59,189 nucleotides of DNA, from assembly GCA_015056125.1 (NCBI GenBank), contig SVGW01000007.1, positions 1-59,189 on the forward strand, given 5' to 3'. Made by a program: the position numbers and the translations under genes. Shown piece by piece: positions 1 through 24,131 of the stretch (position 1 is its first letter; the number at the start of each line of letters is the position of its first letter). Below the pieces are notes generated by a model. It was not told where the DNA came from and searched no databases. It saw only the letters and a list, made by a program, of their open reading frames with translations. The DNA comes from Clostridiales bacterium (GTDB lineage: Bacteria > Bacillota > Clostridia > Christensenellales > Aristaeellaceae).

Positions 1-60
1 CTCTACGACCATCTGCTTGAACTCCCCAGCATATCGTTTATTCGGTACTCCCTTTGGCAT
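1..60 (-). CDS. IS3-family transposase OrfA, N-terminal 20 residues (runs off the window)
   Basis: The frame starts with ATG at complement 58-60 and reads MPKGVPNKRYAGEFKQMVVE, the typical N-terminus of an IS150-group OrfA. This is the small DNA-binding helix-turn-helix subunit that is normally fused to the OrfB DDE integrase by programmed frameshifting. Only 20 codons are present because the gene continues past base 1. It lies 67 bases inside the inferred IS terminus, the usual spacing. Whether the element is intact cannot be judged here. Confidence 0.75.
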   Translation of the reverse strand, partial: MPKGVPNKRYAGEFKQMVVE

Positions 61-127
61 AGAAAAACACCCCATTTCTTAGTACAAGTATTTTACCATA
101 CTTGTCTAACAAATGGGGTGCAGTTCA
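1..127 (-). mobile_element. IS3-family (IS150-like) insertion sequence, left end only
   Basis: The terminal inverted repeat read on the minus strand from 127 begins TGAACTGCACCCCATTTG, closely resembling the TGTACTGCACCCATTTT end of IS150. It is followed by a short hairpin (CAAGTATGGTAAAATACTTG) and then the transposase start at 60. The rest of the element lies outside the window. The right-hand boundary at 127 is placed by the TG...CA rule of IS3 elements and by the point where similarity to repeat family R1 begins (128). The insertion falls at the loop of the R1 central hairpin. Confidence 0.75.
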
Positions 128-300
128 GTGCTTTCTCTCTCGGCGTTTTCTCGTTTTATTGTGCCCGTGAAAATCGGTGCTCCGTTTCTAACGCTTCATG
201 CGCAATCACGGAACTTTGAAAAAATGCGTATGTCGCATACCGGAGTCCAGAGGAGGAACTCCTCTGGCGAGGGGTACAGGGGGCGAGAAGCCCCCTGCTA
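128..300. repeat. Repeat family R1, copy a (right half; left half cut off by the IS)
   Basis: The segment matches the right halves of 15511-15890 and 17191-17511. Starting at the IS junction it shows the right arm of the central hairpin (GCTTTCTC...GGCGTTTTCTCG), TGTGCCCGTG, TGTCGCATACCGGAGT, and two outer hairpins. These are CCAGAGGAG-GAA-CTCCTCTGG (248-268) and CAGGGGGC-GAGAA-GCCCCCTG (about 277-297). It ends about 25 bases from the stop codon of the DUF1846 gene. The left half would lie beyond the IS, outside the window. Confidence 0.8.
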
Positions 301-322: not shown

Positions 323-1804
323 TCACTTATGATACAGCTTCTTGGTTTGATACTTGGGATCGCAGGTGAGGTTCACCTTCAGGCGCTTGAATACGTTATC
401 ATCTACCTGGGAGAGGATCACGGTAGAGTGAGCCTCGCAGCTTTGCAAAAGGGGCAATTGGCGCATGGCCCGGGCGGCGGATTCATCGGTGGCGGCGCAG
501 ATGGAAAGCGCCAGCAGGATTTCATCGGTGTGCAACCGGGGATTATGGTTACCAAGATAGGTGCATTTTAAGGATTGGATGGGCTCGATTACGTGGGGAG
601 AAATCAGATGGGCCTTCTTATCGATGCCGCCCAGGGCCTTGAGCACATTGAGCAAAAGCGCCGCAGAGGGGCCCAGCAGATTGGATGTTTTGCCGGTGAT
701 GATGCGGCCATCGGGCAATTGCATGGCCAGGGCGGGGGCGCCCGTTTCCTCAGCCCGCTGGCGTGCGGCGGCGATTACCGGGCGGTTATCATCGGATAGC
801 CCCATCTTCTGAAGCATCATCAGCAGCTTTTCCACTTCGGCCTCGGAGCCGTGGCCCTGGCGCAGGGTACACCGGGCGGCATAATAGCGGCGGATGATCT
901 CCTGCTTGGCCGCTTCCCGGCATACTTCGTCATCGATGATGCAGTTGCCCACCATATTGACCCCCATATCCGTGGGGGAAGCATAGGGGGATTTGCCGTA
1001 AATCTGCTCAAATACCGCGCTGAGCACGGGAAAAATTTCGATATCCCGGTTGTAGTTCACCGTGGTTTCTCCGTAGGCTTCCAGGTGGAAGGGGTCGATC
1101 ATGTTCATATCGTCCAGGTCCACCGTGGCGGCTTCATAGGCCACGTTTACCGGGTGCTTAAGCGGCAGATTCCAGATGGGGAAGGTTTCAAATTTGGCAT
1201 AGCCCGCCCGGATCCCCTTGCGGTGATCCTGATACAGTTGGCTCAGGCACACGGCCATTTTGCCGCTGCCGGGTCCGGGAGCCGTCACCAGTACCAGGGG
1301 CCGGGAGGTTTCGATGTATTCATCCTTGCCAAAGCCATCGTCGCTTACGATGTGCTTCACATTATAGGGATAGCCTTCAATGGGGAAATGGCGGTACACC
1401 CGCACCCCCAGGCTTTCCAGCCGCTGCTTGAAGCTGACGGCCGTGGTCTGCTCCCGCCAGCGAGTGAGCACCACGCTGCCCACATACATCCCAATGGCAC
1501 GGAAAGCATCAATCAGCCGGAGCACATCGGCGTCATAGGTGATGCCAAGATCGCCCCGCACCTTATTTTTTTCAATATCATCTGCGCTGATCACGATCAC
1601 CAGCTCAGCCTGCTCCTTCAGCGTGAGCAGCATGGACATTTTGCTGTCCGGCCGGAAGCCGGGAAGCACCCGGGAGGCATGGTTGTCGTCAAAGAGCTTG
1701 CCGCCCAATTCCAGATACAGCTTTCCGCCGAAAGCGTCGATACGCTGCCGGATACGCTCTGACTGCATGGCGGTGTACTTATCATGGTCAAATCCGATCT
1801 GCAT
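323..1804 (-). CDS. DUF1846 (UPF0371) family protein
   Basis: A 493-residue protein with the typical length and sequence of the DUF1846 family, which is common in Firmicutes. Recognisable segments are the N-terminal MQIGFDHDKYTAMQSERI, a glycine-rich TAPGPGSGKMAVCLSQ loop near residue 175 that could bind phosphate or nucleotide, and DPFHLEAYG. The biochemical role is unknown; structures of the family suggest a nucleotide-handling fold. Translation starts at ATG 1804, preceded by GGGAGGG at good spacing. A clear promoter lies at 1841-1869. The 3' end abuts repeat R1a, which may act as the end of the transcript. Nothing suggests truncation. Confidence 0.88.
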   Translation of the reverse strand: MQIGFDHDKYTAMQSERIRQRIDAFGGKLYLELGGKLFDDNHASRVLPGFRPDSKMSMLLTLKEQAELVIVISADDIEKNKVRGDLGITYDADVLRLIDAFRAIGMYVGSVVLTRWREQTTAVSFKQRLESLGVRVYRHFPIEGYPYNVKHIVSDDGFGKDEYIETSRPLVLVTAPGPGSGKMAVCLSQLYQDHRKGIRAGYAKFETFPIWNLPLKHPVNVAYEAATVDLDDMNMIDPFHLEAYGETTVNYNRDIEIFPVLSAVFEQIYGKSPYASPTDMGVNMVGNCIIDDEVCREAAKQEIIRRYYAARCTLRQGHGSEAEVEKLLMMLQKMGLSDDNRPVIAAARQRAEETGAPALAMQLPDGRIITGKTSNLLGPSAALLLNVLKALGGIDKKAHLISPHVIEPIQSLKCTYLGNHNPRLHTDEILLALSICAATDESAARAMRQLPLLQSCEAHSTVILSQVDDNVFKRLKVNLTCDPKYQTKKLYHK

Positions 1805-14503: not shown

Positions 14504-14515
14504 TTGATGATTTAA

Positions 14516-14729
14516 GCGAGAGGACCTTTCTTTTCGAAAAAAGAAAGGCCCTCTCGCGCTCTCCCAAAGAAAACTGATACTGGCTTTTTTGATTGCTATC
14601 CTATCAACTATTTTCCCAGTGAAACACGGGGAAAGCACAAGCAAAAGCAAAATTTCCTTCATCCCGGATTGGTTTTCGGAAGGGGTGCAGGGGAAACCGC
14701 TTTTGCCTTCAAAAGCGGTTTCCCCTGCA
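14516..14729. repeat. Repeat family R2, copy b
   Basis: The left hairpin is at 14516-14557 (GCGAGAGG...CCTCTCGC). The right hairpin at 14686-14729 is a near-perfect palindrome with arm TGCAGGGGAAACCGCTTTTG. Read inward on the minus strand, the right end continues ACCCCTTCCGAAAACCAATC, matching the inward motif of copy a. It occupies the gap between pgk and tpiA, so it lies inside the glycolytic transcription unit. The final hairpin ends 11 bases before the tpiA ribosome binding site. Confidence 0.75.
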
Positions 14730-14753: not shown

Positions 14754-15506
14754 ATGCGTACTCCCATCATTGCCGGTAACTGGAAAATGAATAAAACTCC
14801 CGCCGAAGCCAAGGTGCTGGTGAATGAGCTTAAGCCCCTGGTGAAGGACGCCAATGCCACCGTTGTGATCTGCGTGCCCTATGTGGATCTTTGCACCGCG
14901 CTCAAGGAAACCGAAGGCACCAACATCCATGTGGGCGCTCAGAACGTGCACTTCATGGAATCCGGCGCCTACACCGGCGAAATCTCCGCCGCCATGCTCA
15001 AGGAAATGGGCGTGGAATATGTGATCATCGGCCATAGCGAACGCCGCCAGTATTTCGGCGAAACCGATGCTACCGTGAACCTGCGCACCCTGGCCGCCGT
15101 GAAGGCCGGCCTCACTCCCATTATCTGCGTGGGCGAGCGTAAGGAAGAGCGGGAAGCGGGCTACACCAATGCGCTGGTTGAATACCAGACCCTGATCGCC
15201 CTCAACGGCCTCACCGATGAGGAAATCAAGAATGTGGTCATCGCTTACGAGCCCGTGTGGGCCATTGGCACTGGCCTTACCGCCACTGATGAACAGGCCA
15301 ACGAAACCATCGGCGTGATCCGCGAAGCCATCCAGCGCAAGTATGGCAAGGAAGTGGCCGATACCGTGCGCATCCAGTATGGCGGCAGCATGAACCCCAA
15401 GAACGTGAAGGGCCTGATGGCGCAGCCTGAAATCGATGGCGGCCTCATCGGCGGCGCTTCCCTGAAGGCTCCCGATTTCTCCTTGGTTGTGAATTACGAT
15501 AAATAA
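14754..15506 (+). CDS. tpiA: Triosephosphate isomerase
   Basis: A 250-residue (beta/alpha)8 enzyme that interconverts dihydroxyacetone phosphate and glyceraldehyde-3-phosphate. Visible active-site elements are GNWKMN (residues 8-13), the electrophilic histidine in IIGHSERR (about 93-100), the catalytic glutamate in AYEPVWAIGTG (about 164-174), and the phosphate-binding YGGSM and GGASL loops. AAGGAGG precedes the ATG. It follows pgk across repeat R2b, and repeat R1b begins four bases after its stop. The enzyme is cytosolic and full length. Confidence 0.97.
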   Translation: MRTPIIAGNWKMNKTPAEAKVLVNELKPLVKDANATVVICVPYVDLCTALKETEGTNIHVGAQNVHFMESGAYTGEISAAMLKEMGVEYVIIGHSERRQYFGETDATVNLRTLAAVKAGLTPIICVGERKEEREAGYTNALVEYQTLIALNGLTDEEIKNVVIAYEPVWAIGTGLTATDEQANETIGVIREAIQRKYGKEVADTVRIQYGGSMNPKNVKGLMAQPEIDGGLIGGASLKAPDFSLVVNYDK

Positions 15507-15510
15507 GAAG

Positions 15511-15890
15511 GGAAGACGATGGGGGCTTCGCCCCACCCCACCAGGGACGGTCGTCCCTGGACCCTTCCTCCGGACATACAATCCACTTTTTCAAACAACG
15601 TGCCGGTGATGCTTGAAAGAAACCATATCAGCCACGGGCACGGCGGCCATAGTCGCCAGCCGGATGCTTTACATCCAGAAAAAACGAGAAAAAACGCCGG
15701 TTGGAGAAAGCAAGCTTTCTCCAACCGGCGTTTTCTCGTTTTTATTGTGCCCGTGTAAATCGTTCCTTCGTTCCCAAAGCTTCTTGCGCATTCACGCAGC
15801 TTAGAAAACATGCCTATGTCGCATACCGAAGTCCAGAGGCGAATCTCCTCTGGCGTGGGGGTACGGGGGCCGCGAAGGCCCCTGCTCCGG
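15511..15890. repeat. Repeat family R1, copy b (full length)
   Basis: The order of parts is: left end with GGGGGCTTCGCCCC and the perfect hairpin CCAGGGACG-GT-CGTCCCTGG, a TCCGG box, CACGGGCAC, a central hairpin with about 30-base arms (15679-15743, loop AA), GTGCCCGTG, TGTCGCATACCG, then outer hairpins CCAGAGG...CCTCTGG and GGGGCC-GCGAA-GGCCCC. The right end read in reverse resembles the left end, so the element is an imperfect long palindrome. It has no gene and starts four bases after the tpiA stop. Confidence 0.85.
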
Positions 15891-15898
15891 GCTCCAAG

Positions 15899-15927
15899 TT
15901 GCACGGAAAAGAAAAAATGGGTATAAT
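15899..15927 (+). promoter_or_regulatory. Promoter of the DUF2974 gene
   Basis: TTGCAC (15899-15904) and TATAAT (15922-15927) have a 17-base spacer. The promoter begins nine bases after the right edge of repeat R1b. Confidence 0.8.
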
Positions 15928-15950
15928 GAGTAATGAAAGGGGAGAAAAGC

Positions 15951-17189
15951 ATGGCAAACTTATATGATTATCTGGATTGGCGGGGGGATTTAACATTTGC
16001 CCAGTCCCCTTTGAATGAGGTGGACAGCCTGATTTTCACCTGGCTGGCCTATGTGGAATGGGATGGAGTGCTCAGCGGGCCCGGGGAAGGAGAAGCGCTT
16101 CCCCTTTGGAAAGCCGCGGAAAAGTATTTTGATCAGAATCCCCTTCCCGAAGAAAAAAATGCCGCCTATTCCATCTTTCCTAAAATTACATCGGCGGTGC
16201 TTTTGCATCGGCTGATGCAATTGGATAGGTATCGGGATATCCTTCTTTGCGCCTTTGTGAATGAATTGGATGAAGGAGAGCAGAAGCAATTTGCCGCCCT
16301 TACAATCCTTTGGGAGGATAGGGCCTATGTATCCTACCGGGGAACGGATACCAGCTTTGTGGGGTGGAAGGAGGATTGCTTTCTGGTATTTGATCAGGCC
16401 GTGCCGGCCCAGGTATCGGCATTGAAATATTTGGGGCAGGTTCCCCAGCTTTCGGGCCGCCGCCTGTATCTGGGCGGGCATTCCAAGGGCGGCAATCTGG
16501 CGGTATACGCCGGGGTGAAATGCGCTCCGGAAATAGGCAGCCGGATCGAACTGATTTTTAATAACGATGGCCCCGGCTTTCCTCTTTCTTTCATTCAGAG
16601 CATGGATTATTATCGCATGCTTCCCAGAATCCGCACCATCATTCCCCAATCCTCGGTGGTGGGATTATTGCTGGAGCATCGGGAAGCCCATAGCATCGTT
16701 AAAAGCGCCCAGGTGAGCGTGCTGCAGCATAATGCGGTGCACTGGGAGGTGAAGGGCACGGCCTTTGTGAGGGAAAAGGACGTGAGCAGCGTGAGCCTAT
16801 TGTTTGACCGCACGCTGAAGGATTGGGTGGCCAAGCTGGAGGAAGAGGAGCAGCGGTCCTTTATCGAAACGCTCTTTGGCCTTCTGGAGGCAACCGGCGC
16901 CAAATACATTGAAGAATTGGGCGAGGATGGCCTGGGGAAGCTGGTTCGGGCGCTGCAAGCCTTATCCGATTTGGAATGGGAAAAAAAGAGCATGATGCTC
17001 AGGGCCGTTTTATTGCTGGTGCAGGCGGGAAACAATCGATTGTATCAGGCCCTGGGCGCTCCCGGCCTGGAAATGATCCGCCAGGGGCAAAAGCATGCTC
17101 GCTCCATCAAGGAGTGGGTTTTGGAGGCGCTGAATAAAATCCTGGGCATGGATGAAGAGGGAGAGCAGCATATCCCCGAGGATGAGTAG
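15951..17189 (+). CDS. DUF2974 (Mbeg1-like) alpha/beta-hydrolase family protein
   Basis: A 412-residue protein with a lipase-like fold. Strand and elbow motifs are YVSYRGTDTSFVGWKED (about 125-142) and the nucleophile elbow LGGHSKGGNLAVYAG (about 177-191, G-H-S-K-G). Catalytic serine chemistry on an ester or lipid is expected but the substrate is unknown. ATG 15951 is chosen because AAAGGGGAG is 9 bases upstream and an earlier in-frame ATG lies before it. There is no signal peptide. It has its own promoter, and repeat R1c follows the stop immediately. Proteins of this type are widespread in Clostridia. Confidence 0.87.
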   Translation: MANLYDYLDWRGDLTFAQSPLNEVDSLIFTWLAYVEWDGVLSGPGEGEALPLWKAAEKYFDQNPLPEEKNAAYSIFPKITSAVLLHRLMQLDRYRDILLCAFVNELDEGEQKQFAALTILWEDRAYVSYRGTDTSFVGWKEDCFLVFDQAVPAQVSALKYLGQVPQLSGRRLYLGGHSKGGNLAVYAGVKCAPEIGSRIELIFNNDGPGFPLSFIQSMDYYRMLPRIRTIIPQSSVVGLLLEHREAHSIVKSAQVSVLQHNAVHWEVKGTAFVREKDVSSVSLLFDRTLKDWVAKLEEEEQRSFIETLFGLLEATGAKYIEELGEDGLGKLVRALQALSDLEWEKKSMMLRAVLLLVQAGNNRLYQALGAPGLEMIRQGQKHARSIKEWVLEALNKILGMDEEGEQHIPEDE

Positions 17190-17190
17190 A

Positions 17191-17511
17191 AGGGAACGAT
17201 GGGGGCTTCGCCCCTCCACCCCGCCAGGGACGGTCATCCCGGGATCCATCCTCCGGATATTACTTGGCTTTTTCTATCAAACAATGTGCCGGTGCAGCGC
17301 CGGGAAAACGAAAAAAATGCCGGTTGGAGAAAGCTTGCTTTCTCTTCCGGCATTTTCTCGTTTTTTATGTGCCCGTGAAATTGCTTTTTCGTTTCCTCAA
17401 GTCTCTTGCGGAAACCCCATCGTTTTGCCTGATTGTTCCGTCGCATACCGGAGTCCAGAGGACGATGTCCTCTGGCGAGGGGTACAGGGGGCGAGAAGCC
17501 CCCTGCTCCGG
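17191..17511. repeat. Repeat family R1, copy c (full length)
   Basis: It carries the same parts as copy b without the roughly 35-base left-arm insertion: GGGGGCTTCGCCCC, GGGACGGTCATCCC, TCCGGATA, a central hairpin at 17303-17366 (loop TT), GTGCCCGTG, TCGCATACCGGAGT, CCAGAGGAC-GAT-GTCCTCTGG and CAGGGGGC-GAGAA-GCCCCCTG. The left edge lies one base after the DUF2974 stop and the right edge three bases before the stop of the convergent small gene. It therefore fills exactly the space between two convergent genes. Confidence 0.85.
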
Positions 17512-17514
17512 TCG

Positions 17515-17718
17515 CTACTGTTCATCATTTCCGTCAATGAACCGCGGCTGAATGGGATGAATGCTTTCCAATTGGGAAATGTCCTCTCCCTGCTCCGCTG
17601 TTTCGATCTGAGCGGGCAGGATGCCGGTGCATTCGGTAAAGGATGCCACTTGGGTTACATCAAAGAGGGGATCCCGGGAAGGGTTGGTTCGAGGCGTTTC
17701 TTTTTTTCTCTGGCTCAT
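17515..17718 (-). CDS. Small conserved-looking hypothetical protein (67 aa)
   Basis: A 67-residue hydrophilic protein beginning MSQRKKETPRTNPSRDPLFD and continuing VTQVASFTECTGILPA. It has a single cysteine and an acidic C-terminus, with no membrane segment. Its start codon overlaps the stop of the upstream DUF1540 gene (ATGA), so the two are coupled. I believe similar RDPLFDVTQVA-ECTG small proteins occur in Clostridia, but I know no function. The stop lies three bases from the end of repeat R1c. Confidence 0.72.
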   Translation of the reverse strand: MSQRKKETPRTNPSRDPLFDVTQVASFTECTGILPAQIETAEQGEDISQLESIHPIQPRFIDGNDEQ

Positions 17719-17885
17719 TTGCAGTGATAGCTCTGGCACATGCTTTCATCCGCAGGATCGCCGGAATAGGCCATGGGTGTGGGGGCTACCTGAATGCTTT
17801 CCAGGGAGCAAATGCCCTGCTCGGGACGGAGATGGCGGCAGGATTCCACGCTGCAATGAATGCACTGGTTCTTCTTTTCATTCAT
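17715..17885 (-). CDS. DUF1540 domain protein (56 aa)
   Basis: A 56-residue cysteine-rich protein. Cysteines at 8, 11, 16, 26, 50 and 55 follow the DUF1540 pattern (CIHC-x4-C...C-x4-I-x-V...C), probably a small metal-binding fold. AAAGGAGCGGATCAATC precedes ATG 17885. It forms a two-gene operon with the 67-residue protein. A longer frame through this region, opening upstream at 18434, is not believed, because the ribosome binding site and domain start fit only the short version. The function of the family is unknown. Confidence 0.82.
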   Translation of the reverse strand: MNEKKNQCIHCSVESCRHLRPEQGICSLESIQVAPTPMAYSGDPADESMCQSYHCK

Positions 17886-19972: not shown

Positions 19973-19978
19973 AAAGAG

Positions 19979-20220
19979 TAGATGCCAGGAAAGGGAGAGT
20001 ACCCTGAGGGCGCGTCCAAAGAGAGCCGTGGATGGTGGAAAGCGGCGGCGCAGCGCAGGGGAACATGGCCCTGGAGCATGCGGGGGCAAGCACGTTCAGC
20101 CTTCGCCGGATGGCCCCGATACAGGCCCAATGAAGGCGCATGGGAAAGCCGTGCGCGAATCAGGGTGGTACCGCGTAAATTTACGCCCCTGCATCAACAT
20201 ATGATGCGGGGGCTTTTTTT
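19979..20220 (+). ncRNA. T-box riboswitch (methionine) upstream of metG
   Basis: The conserved T-box core AGGGTGGTACCGCG is at 20162-20175. Next comes a terminator, GCCCCTGCATCA paired with TGATGCGGGGGC and seven T (20184-20220). In stem I, AGAGAGCC and GGTGGAAAGC mark the distal region. The codon at the specifier position is read as ATG at 20065-20067 (GAACATGGCCCTGGAGC), matching the downstream methionyl-tRNA synthetase. Uncharged tRNA-Met would stabilise the antiterminator and raise expression. Confidence 0.93.
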
Positions 20221-20257
20221 GCCAGACGCATCCATCAAAAGAAGGAGAAATGCTTCT

Positions 20258-22276
20258 ATGTGTAATCAGTGCAACAAGAAAACCTACTACATCACCACGC
20301 CCATTTACTATCCCTCCGGCAATATGCATATTGGCCACACCTACACCACCGTGGCTGCCGATACCATGACCCGTTTTAAGCGGCTCACAGGCTACGATGC
20401 CTATTTCCTCACCGGCACGGACGAGCACGGCCAGAAGATTGAGCAAAAGGCCGCCGAGGCCGGCGTATCTCCCAAGGAATATGTGGATAAAATCGTGGCC
20501 AATACCAAGGATTTGTGGAAACTGATGAATATCGAATATGACGATTTCATCCGCACCACCGATGAGCGCCATGAAAAGATCGTGCAGAAGATCTTTAAGC
20601 AGTTCTTTGATCAGGGCGATATTTACAAGGCCTCCTACGAAGGCCAGTACTGCACTCCCTGTGAATCCTTCTGGACCGCTTCCCAGCTGGTGGAGAAGGA
20701 TGGGGTGAAGGTGTGCCCGGACTGCGGCCGCCCCACCCAGCTGGTGACTGAAGAAAGCTACTTCTTTAGGATGAGTAAATATCAGGATTGGTTGATCGAA
20801 TATATCGAATCCCATCCCGATTTCATCCAGCCTGCCTCCCGGGCCAATGAAATGATCAATAATTTCTTAAAGCCCGGCCTTCAGGATCTGTGCGTGAGCC
20901 GTACCAGCTTTAAGTGGGGCGTGCAGGTGGATTTTGATCCCAAGCATGTGGTGTATGTGTGGATTGACGCTCTCTCCAACTATATCACCGCCCTGGGCTA
21001 TGGCACCGATCACGATGAACTGATGCAGAAATATTGGCCTGCCAATGTGCATCTGGTGGGCAAGGAAATCGTGCGCTTCCACACCATCTATTGGCCCATT
21101 ATGCTCCATGCCCTGGGTCTGCCCCTGCCCAAGCAGGTATTCGCCCATGGCTGGCTGCTCTTTGGCAATGATAAGATGAGCAAATCCAAGGGCAATGTGG
21201 TGTATCCCCAGCCCATCGTTAATCGCTACGGCGCCGACGCCCTGCGCTATTATCTCCTGCGCGAAATGCCCTTTGGCGCGGATGGCAACTACACCAACGA
21301 GGCCTTCCTCACCCGCATGAACGCCGATCTGGCCAATGACCTGGGCAATCTGGTATCTCGCACGGTGGCCATGATCGAAAAGTATTTTGACGGCGTGATC
21401 CCCGCCTGGACGGACGCCGTGGACGATACTGTGGACGCCCCTCTTAAGGAGCACTGTGCCGCCCTGCCCAAGCTGGTGGAGGCGCAGATGGATAAGCTCC
21501 AGTATTCCCAGGCCCTGGCTGAAATCTGGAAGGTGATCGGGGAATGCAATAAGTATATCGATCTTACCCAGCCCTGGGTGCTGGGCAAGGATGAGAGCAA
21601 GAAGGATCGCCTGGCCAATGTGATGCTGATGCTGGCCGAGTGTGTGCGCTTTGCGGCAGTGCTCATTGCTCCCTTCATGCCCCATACTCCCGAACGCATT
21701 TTTGAGCAGCTGGGCGTGAACGATGAAGATCTCAAAACCTGGGAATCCCTGGCTTCCTTTGGTCAGCTGCCTGCGGGCACCAAGGTGAAAAAGGGCGAGG
21801 CCCTCTTCCCCCGCATTGATATCAAGAAGGAGCTGGAAGCCCTGGAAGGCCCCAAGGAAGAAAAGAAGCCCGAAAAGGCCGAGAAGAAACAGGAAAAGAA
21901 GCAGGAGAAAAAGGAAAAGAAGGTGGAAATCCCCGAGGGCTGCATTGCCTTTGGCGATTTTGAAAAGATCCAGCTGCGGGTAGCCAAGGTGTGCGCCTGC
22001 GAAAAGGTGGAAAAGAGCGATAAGCTGCTGAAATTTGATCTGGATCTGGGCACTGAGCATCGCACCGTGCTCTCCGGCATCGCCAAGTTCCATAATCCCG
22101 AGGAGCTGGTGGGCAAGAATCTGATCCTGCTGGCCAATCTGGCGCCCCGGAAGATCATGGGCATTGAAAGCCAGGGCATGCTGCTCTCTGCCGTAAAGGT
22201 GAATGAAGACGGCAGTGAAACATTGCGCCTGCTCACCGCCGATTCCATCATGCCCGCCGGAGCAGAAATTGGCTGA
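20258..22276 (+). CDS. metG: Methionyl-tRNA synthetase with C-terminal tRNA-binding domain
   Basis: A 672-residue class I synthetase that charges tRNA-Met. HIGH is at residues 24-27 and KMSKS at about 306-310 (DKMSKSKGN). A cysteine-rich zinc knuckle is formed by CTPC and CPDC near residues 130-155. An anticodon-binding helical domain follows, then a Lys/Glu-rich linker (about 535-560), and the last 105 residues are an EMAP/Trbp-type tRNA-binding domain (FEKIQLRVAKVCACEKVEKS). ATG 20258 is used, as GAAGGAG is 10 bases before it; the upstream extension is T-box RNA. A terminator follows. It is full length. Confidence 0.97.
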   Translation: MCNQCNKKTYYITTPIYYPSGNMHIGHTYTTVAADTMTRFKRLTGYDAYFLTGTDEHGQKIEQKAAEAGVSPKEYVDKIVANTKDLWKLMNIEYDDFIRTTDERHEKIVQKIFKQFFDQGDIYKASYEGQYCTPCESFWTASQLVEKDGVKVCPDCGRPTQLVTEESYFFRMSKYQDWLIEYIESHPDFIQPASRANEMINNFLKPGLQDLCVSRTSFKWGVQVDFDPKHVVYVWIDALSNYITALGYGTDHDELMQKYWPANVHLVGKEIVRFHTIYWPIMLHALGLPLPKQVFAHGWLLFGNDKMSKSKGNVVYPQPIVNRYGADALRYYLLREMPFGADGNYTNEAFLTRMNADLANDLGNLVSRTVAMIEKYFDGVIPAWTDAVDDTVDAPLKEHCAALPKLVEAQMDKLQYSQALAEIWKVIGECNKYIDLTQPWVLGKDESKKDRLANVMLMLAECVRFAAVLIAPFMPHTPERIFEQLGVNDEDLKTWESLASFGQLPAGTKVKKGEALFPRIDIKKELEALEGPKEEKKPEKAEKKQEKKQEKKEKKVEIPEGCIAFGDFEKIQLRVAKVCACEKVEKSDKLLKFDLDLGTEHRTVLSGIAKFHNPEELVGKNLILLANLAPRKIMGIESQGMLLSAVKVNEDGSETLRLLTADSIMPAGAEIG

Positions 22277-23986: not shown

Positions 23987-24028
23987 GGGAATTCAGCATT
24001 CAGAATTAAAAGTTAAGAATAGTAAAAC

Positions 24029-24100
24029 AGGGAGCAATCTTGGCGCTCTGCAAGACGGGACTATGTGCCTCGTACTTGCAGAATGGACAAGTTGCTCCCT
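24029..24100. other. Extended 72-base stem-loop between convergent SDR and recO genes
   Basis: Outer stem: AGGGAGCAA with TTGCTCCCT. Inner stem: CTGCAAG with CTTGCAG. Apical stem: ACGGG with CTCGT. On the minus strand it is followed by TGTTTTACTATTC, so it may terminate recO transcription. It is longer and more compound than an ordinary terminator. Confidence 0.6.
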
Positions 24101-24131
24101 ATTTGCATTTGAAACTTTTCATTCTACATTT

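Follow-up and report, generated by a model that had tools for sequence, protein, structure and literature searches.

Introduction

REP-like repeats have been known for decades, and both their spread and their function are still debated. REPs are placed between convergent genes, often less than 20 bp from a 3' end (PMC3733652), and IS elements are already known to insert into their palindromes (PMC1525189). The names Firmicutes and Clostridia do not occur in the text of the former paper.

Here we analyse a stretch of 59,189 nucleotides from a Clostridiales genome (G000), called the window. It carries copies of R1, a many-hairpin element of about 370 bases in which two inverted-repeat arms, each with two hairpins, surround an inner four-way junction. 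R1 has many copies, a structure with covariation, no strand bias, a place between convergent genes, and contents that differ between species at orthologous sites. We regard R1 as probably a genus-specific, non-autonomous, REP/BIME-like foldback that serves as a two-way terminator and has spread as a replaceable cassette at gene 3' ends.

R1 copies in the window

A first-pass annotation of the window had placed R1 at 15511-15890, 17191-17511 and 128-300, and profile matches locate all three copies there (Table 1). The profile has 377 positions and was built from 24 loci, copy 1 included, plus copy 2. The first two had been described as full copies, which is accurate for copy 1; profile positions 116-169, with hairpins A and B and the 5' strand of the stem P1, are missing from copy 2. 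When copies 1 and 2 were folded and compared with shuffled sequences, the z-scores were -7.7 and -4.2, and none of 100 shuffles reached either value. The compensatory changes previously noticed between copies are real: where copy 2 has CCAGAGGAC/GTCCTCTGG the half copy has CCAGAGGAG/CTCCTCTGG, and copy 1 has GGGGCC/GGCCCC where copies 2 and 3 have GGGGGC/GCCCCC.

Copy 2 sits between the stop codon of the Mbeg1-like gene and that of a 74-aa open reading frame on the reverse strand (17515-17739), which has no Pfam match. Copy 3 owes its half length to a second mobile element, whose end is fused to it at the apex of hairpin C; the half copy faces the 3' end of a DUF1846 gene (323-1804, reverse strand). 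The reading frame in that mobile element starts with MPKGVPNKRYAGEFKQMVVE, which we take to be an IS3-type OrfA.

Table 1. Positions of the R1 copies, their parts and their neighbours in the window.
Feature	Position	Strand	Basis or remark
R1 copy 1	15511..15890	+	full-length; profile match 15514-15885; starts 4 nt after tpiA stop
Copy 1, left arm, outer hairpin GGGGGC..GCCCC	15521..15534	+	aligned copies
Copy 1, left arm, inner hairpin CCAGGGAC..GTCCCTGG	15541..15560	+	aligned copies
Copy 1, inner cassette (P1 closing hairpins A, B, C)	15633..15755	+	covariance-model match
Copy 1, stem P1	5' strand from 15633; 3' strand 15747-15755	+	
Copy 1, hairpin A, GGCGGC..GTCGCC	15642..15657	+	cassette alignment
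Copy 1, hairpin B, CCGGATGC..ACATCCAG	15660..15678	+	consensus of 59 cassettes is CCGGATGC..GCATCCGG
Copy 1, hairpin C, long central, T-rich tails on both strands	15680..15744	.	cassette alignment
Copy 1, right arm, inner hairpin CCAGAGG..CCTCTGG	15833..15853	+	aligned copies
Copy 1, right arm, outer hairpin GGGGCC..GGCCCC	15866..15882	+	aligned copies
R1 copy 2	17191..17511	+	profile matches 17192-17307 and 17300-17506
R1 copy 3, right half only, from hairpin C apex	128..298	+	profile match 129-298
End of other mobile element, fused to R1 half copy	1..127	-	
tpiA, upstream neighbour of copy 1	14754..15506	+	Pfam TIM
Mbeg1-like protein gene, between copies 1 and 2	15933..17189	+	Pfam PF11187

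Copy number and taxonomic range

R1 occurs about 40 times, part-copies included, in the genome G000 (2.86 Mb in 122 contigs, 82% complete): the 40 candidates scored, out of 83, fell at 40 distinct places. We write "about 40" because some half copies may be the two sides of one interrupted element. Three further part-copies adjoin the end of another element. Identity to copy 1 is 73-83% among the full-length copies. A covariance model of the inner cassette matched 28 of the 29 genomes of the genus (G028 gave no match and G016 a single weak one); under filters that drop weak matches, it matched none of seven genomes from other genera of the family and none of 24 from the same order. This search took at most 60 candidates per genome and used stricter filters than the count in G000. 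DNA similarity alone matched R1 in 23 of the 29 genomes, plus one weak match in the order. Copy numbers per genome are rough, since a palindromic copy matched on both strands can count twice, and every genome compared is a draft assembly. The annotation had named the lack of further copies and of covariation as what would speak against its reading of R1; the search returned the roughly 40 copies in this genome and matches in 27 further genomes of the genus, and the covariation exceeds that of the controls (see below).

Collections of phages and plasmids contained no match to R1, and one hairpin A/B pattern had no exact match in viral contigs. The annotation had recognised no named family, and Rfam 15 holds none that matches R1 at or above its gathering score; four hits below that score fall in 15400-17600. 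The window's sole Rfam hit is a T-box leader at 19978-20193, which overlaps the mechanical start of the open reading frame 19982-22276. We found nothing in one open-access literature library on the R1 family or on the exchange of insides at shared sites.

Architecture, covariation and strand symmetry

The left end of R1 consists, in order, of a short GGGGAACGATG, the outer hairpin GGGGGC..GCCCC, CCCC, the inner hairpin CCAGGG..CCCTGG, and TCCGGATATTGC; in the aligned copies the right arm is the inverted repeat of the left. In the inner part a single stem, P1, encloses the three hairpins A, B and C. The consensus core is CACGGGC..GCCCGTG for P1, GGCGGC..GCCGCC for A, CCGGATGC..GCATCCGG for B, and a long C with ..GAGAAAGCNNGCTTTCTC.. 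in it. Parts are lost, reordered or repeated: besides copy 2, two more copies lack about profile positions 68-154; within the arms G009 and G019 have the order C-B-A, whereas G000 has A-B-C, as does a single copy of G012 (the last by eye); and some copies of G001, G021 and G024 have tandem-repeated arms (by eye).

Covariation was studied in 59 cassettes from G000 and its relatives (of 60 found, we excluded one whose hairpin C carries a long insertion). The cassette L044 of G023 has an additional inserted stretch in hairpin C near the apex. Across the 59 cassettes 93.1% of the cells are paired, an excess that is partly built in because the structure, named from the consensus, was taken from the same sequences. 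Stronger evidence comes from two-sided changes, present in 33 of 49 pairs versus 16.8 (sd 1.8) in shuffles, although these shuffle tests too are inflated by the kinship of the sequences. The stem P1, for example, occurs as CACGGGC/GCCCGTG, TTCTGGCCC/GGGCCAGAA, CTTGGGTAC/GTACCCAAG and CCAGGGCAC/GTGCCCTGG. The earlier suggestion that the structure is under selection agrees with a covariation score of 0.242; shuffles gave 0.107 and slid controls 0.05-0.09. None of 500 shuffles equalled the real alignment on any of five measures. The stem mismatches comprise 83 G-T and 66 A-C (P 0.19). Hence, with no bias to G-T over A-C, neither strand is favoured.

Placement between convergent genes

The genes flanking R1 are convergent for 27 of the 31 copies with both neighbours called (three lie in a + + and one in a - - arrangement), versus six of 42 neighbouring gene pairs in the window (Fisher P 3e-10). 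Copy 1 is among the four exceptions. Neighbours were taken from a custom codon-usage caller of open reading frames and not from annotation, and the 41 elements tabulated exclude copies 2 and 3 of the window. Most copies lie within about 10-15 nt of the neighbouring stop codons. Where the left end is complete (n=26), the left gene points inward in 25 cases, at a median stop distance of 7 nt; where the right end is complete (n=36), the right gene does so in 32, at 9.5 nt. A few neighbours lie farther off, by hundreds of bases, and at three loci the left stop codon falls within the first bases of R1. A convergent spacer of the window at 23987-24131 carries another imperfect inverted repeat, GGGAGCAA..TTGCTCCC, which is not R1.

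Differing contents at orthologous sites

R1-type elements of G009 and G019 lie inside a 16-bp inverted-repeat shell, GGGYRCTTTAAWTCAC. With at most one mismatch, the shell repeat matches 84 times in G009 and 50 times in G019, against 0 and 1 for the reversed pattern. It also surrounds foldbacks unrelated to R1, i.e., type 2 (with ends CCTTCCCCT..AGGGGAAGG) and type 3 (CAGAGTACAGAG), labels that were assigned by eye and from short motifs. Type 2 elements have nested hairpins of their own (L159, L161, L181, L226, L229 and L245 in G019, L393 in G013) and occupy the same shell and the same kind of place as R1. The R1 halves L081 and L082 of G000 adjoin an end similar to type 2. Type 3 elements, with repeats like CAGAGTACAGAG and in some cases TGTCATTCTGAGCG, lie shortly past stop codons or within the shell (L228 and L246 in G019, L392 in G003, L321 in G020).

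We compared the flanks outside 72 shell ends of G009 with those outside 49 of G019 and matched eight sites. One pair, L265/L228, was left out of the count (flank identity 72%, with the alignment 50 and 93 bases short). Of the seven clear sites, four have unrelated insides in the two species: L230/L159 and L220+L256/L181, where both flanks were compared, and L218/L238 and L178/L155, matched on one flank. The other three, also matched on one flank, have R1 with differing arms in both species (L182/L248, L264/L177) or the same cassette in both (L275/L239). The flanks of the shell sites are 83-89% identical over 300 bp and the insides of the four unrelated pairs 38-48%; random 60-mers give a mean of 44%, with 95% of them below 51%. 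From one species to another, R1 thus seems to be swapped in place for hairpin elements of a quite different kind.

Between G000 and G021, for which 30 R1 loci were fetched, two sites are common among the fetched loci: R1 has the same orientation at L078/L187 and appears inverted at L081/L196. The locus L216 of G009 was followed in further species. For its left gene, seven of 12 orthologous stretches were read; G019, G020 and G004 have hairpin terminators there, G013 has type 2, G003 type 3, G023 a shell-like sequence with type 3, and G006 neither type. R1 is absent from the seven stretches read of eight for the right gene, and none of the 20 stretches of the two genes together gave a match to the cassette model. 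The genes that flank L216 match separate contigs of G019 (C47 and C63), as if a rearrangement ended at the R1 element.

Terminators at the sites of R1

Between convergent genes R1 is most likely a two-way intrinsic terminator, a prediction made from its sequence: hairpin C, GC-rich in its stem and followed by a T-rich tail on either strand, would end both transcripts that face it. A terminator-like pattern is found on both strands at 15691-15734, in hairpin C of copy 1, and the same pattern search made no call in hairpin C of copy 2. The interval 15400-17600 contains nine such patterns versus 3.4 expected. The T tails of R1 are interrupted (TTTTCTCGTTTT).

The 3' side of tpiA illustrates how R1 might stand in for a terminator. 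By a simple rule (a stem of at least 5 within 90 nt, then 5 T out of 10), 22 of 25 relatives have a plain terminator there, and in G005, G025 and G019 the stem is followed by fewer T. The 90 nt past the tpiA stop in G000 contain no simple terminator by this rule, and R1 alone is present. Such a replacement is not universal, since tpiA of G018 retains its native terminator, followed by an R1-like element, and the left gene at L216 in G009 retains its own ahead of the shell and R1. The cassette is matched 3' of the stop of mfd at five of the 26 loci read (G000, G007, G011, G017, G024); the others have plain hairpins or none, and G013, G020 and in part G006 have another type of foldback (by eye). 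What lies 3' of mfd, and of the left gene at L216, thus depends on the species: R1, type 2, type 3 or a simple terminator, with the types assigned by eye. The gene next to L020, presumably pflA-like, has a close match (73%) in only two relatives, and the cassette is matched at neither locus. In the window, the hairpin past pgk (14515-14574, GCGAGAGGACCTTTCTTTT..) resembles stretches near R1 loci in G021 and the hairpin that follows mfd in G021. Plain terminators may form a repeat family as well.

Mobile elements and transposases

Six of the seven junctions of the elements IS-A and IS-B with R1 fall at profile positions 203-209, where the apex of hairpin C is 205-208; the seventh (contig C60) is in the outer hairpin of the right arm. 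The element found at the start of the window has seven contig ends in the genome, of which four are at the apex of hairpin C, one is in an arm hairpin of R1, and two are elsewhere. The repeat ends ..TTTTTCGACAAACTG and ..TTTTTTGACAGTCTGA (L018, L025, L078; L028, L076) adjoin R1 close to hairpin C (profile positions 177-195 and 217-228) and could be the two ends of one element.

R1 is palindromic, intergenic, present in many copies and mostly located at gene 3' ends. It has terminal inverted repeats (TIR), namely the arms in G000 and the 16-bp shell in G009 and G019. The Y1 transposase domain of REP and REPIN systems (PF01797) scored above the cut-off in six of the 22 genus genomes searched (a set without G022-G028), including G000, where it matched with 31.8 bits over model positions 38-120 of 121. 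It was absent from the R1-rich genomes G007, G009, G015, G019 and G021. We found no transposase tied to R1 and no enzyme for the exchange. Target-site duplications are not above chance: flanking repeats gave 1.52 in 25 shell elements versus 1.51 when permuted, and 17 copies of G000 also gave no excess over permutation. Old copies may have lost them. With neither a target-site duplication nor a tied transposase, the mobility of R1 rests on its copy number and differing sites.

Discussion

We propose that a copy of R1 takes over the place of a terminator or of another foldback between two stop codons, and that hairpin C then ends transcription from both sides; both the two-way ending and the replacement as a process are our inference. 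The foldback or REP-like reading of the annotation fits well with the many copies, the mosaic of hairpin arms, the convergent 3' ends, the lack of a tied transposase and the strong covariation. The constancy of the 16-bp shell around changing insides in two species suggests that the shell anchors recombination or gap repair, perhaps by excision followed by repair from another copy. More broadly, and at somewhat less than even odds, gene 3' ends in this genus may act as sockets for exchangeable foldback cassettes (R1, type 2, type 3 and simple terminators), mutually unrelated elements that would displace each other within conserved boundaries, in some species inside the 16-bp shell, and be served by dedicated recombination or by excision and gap repair. 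If so, they would form a cassette system for transcription ends, with a logic like that of integron cassettes for genes.

The differing insides in G009 and G019 might instead result from independent insertions, in which different elements sharing one TIR reached the same spot once in each lineage. In its favour, different elements with a common TIR are commonly the product of one transposase. Yet, measured from the aligned flanks, the shell of both species starts at an identical place, no common target motif is evident, and the flanking repeats of the 25 shell elements match their permuted value. We therefore consider independent insertion rather unlikely, and favour an exchange anchored on the shell.

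R1 could also be a purely selfish MITE- or REP-like element with no role for the host. Its convergent placement would then be the position of least harm, and its hairpins would be retained for recognition by a transposase. The inverted-repeat arms and the many copies fit this, as do the mere two R1 sites shared by the fetched loci of G000 and the 30 of G021, and R1 itself receives other mobile elements. However, the 90 nt past tpiA in G000 offer no simple terminator other than the hairpins that R1 itself brings, and the inner junction, distant from the ends, covaries strongly. Target-site duplications are not above chance, and a search by eye in two genomes with broken contigs found no two TIRs at a spacing of 0.6-5 kb, which would leave room for a transposase. 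A wholly selfish R1 is in our view unlikely.

Misassembly at repeats could in principle produce differing insides: the drafts are fragmented throughout, many contigs end in or near R1-type repeats, and L230 contains a run of N. Nonetheless, L230/L159 and L220+L256/L181 match on both flanks, the inner ends are contiguous with the flanks, and a 16-bp shell is presumably too short to mislead the usual assembler, making this explanation improbable. Finally, the annotation's other suggestion of a structured RNA, here a non-coding RNA made from one strand and spread as a gene family, has the covarying four-way junction and the conserved letters of hairpins B and C in its favour but is very improbable, given the unbiased mismatches (no preference for G-T over A-C), the lack of any promoter-like site in 15400-17600 (1.7 expected by chance), the tight contact with the stop codons of both neighbours, the duplicated arms and missing parts of copies, and the lack of any Rfam match at the gathering score.

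This genus, with 29 genomes, offers a conserved four-way junction, a habit of lying between convergent genes, and orthologous sites with a fixed boundary and differing content. With the junction, the placement and the orthologous site pairs at hand, two-way termination and the agent of the inside swap are now testable questions.

Comparison with known systems

REP, BIME and REPIN elements resemble R1 in their palindromic units, which occur singly, inverted or in tandem, in their sites between convergent genes and in being targets of IS elements (PMC3733652, PMC1525189). R1 differs in its two-hairpin arms around a conserved four-way junction and in the rarity of the REP tags: within 14 nt of either end, GTAG occurs in one and CGTC in none of 25 aligned copies of G000. 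MITEs such as ERIC, RUP and Chunjie are also short and intergenic, with TIRs and dozens of copies (PMC10969869). In contrast, R1 has no target-site duplication above chance, no matching autonomous element was seen among the TIR hits read by eye in two genomes, and at some orthologous sites it keeps the shell and changes the inside; this comparison with MITEs is by description and not by sequence.

The pneumococcal SPRITE is a repeat resembling a Rho-independent terminator and is bunched with repeats that insert into each other (PMC10969869). R1 is set apart from it, by description and not by size or sequence, through its larger plan, its conserved junction and its convergent-gene habit. Insertions of the IS1397, ISKpn1 and IS621 type into REP palindromes have their counterpart in the IS-like ends that join R1 within hairpins, with a different host and target sequence and with the joining transposases not recovered. 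R1 behaves like a REP/BIME and also like a MITE. Since its copies almost all lack the REP tags and show no MITE-like duplication above chance, we class R1 as neither REP nor MITE and as a new variant of interspersed palindromic elements.
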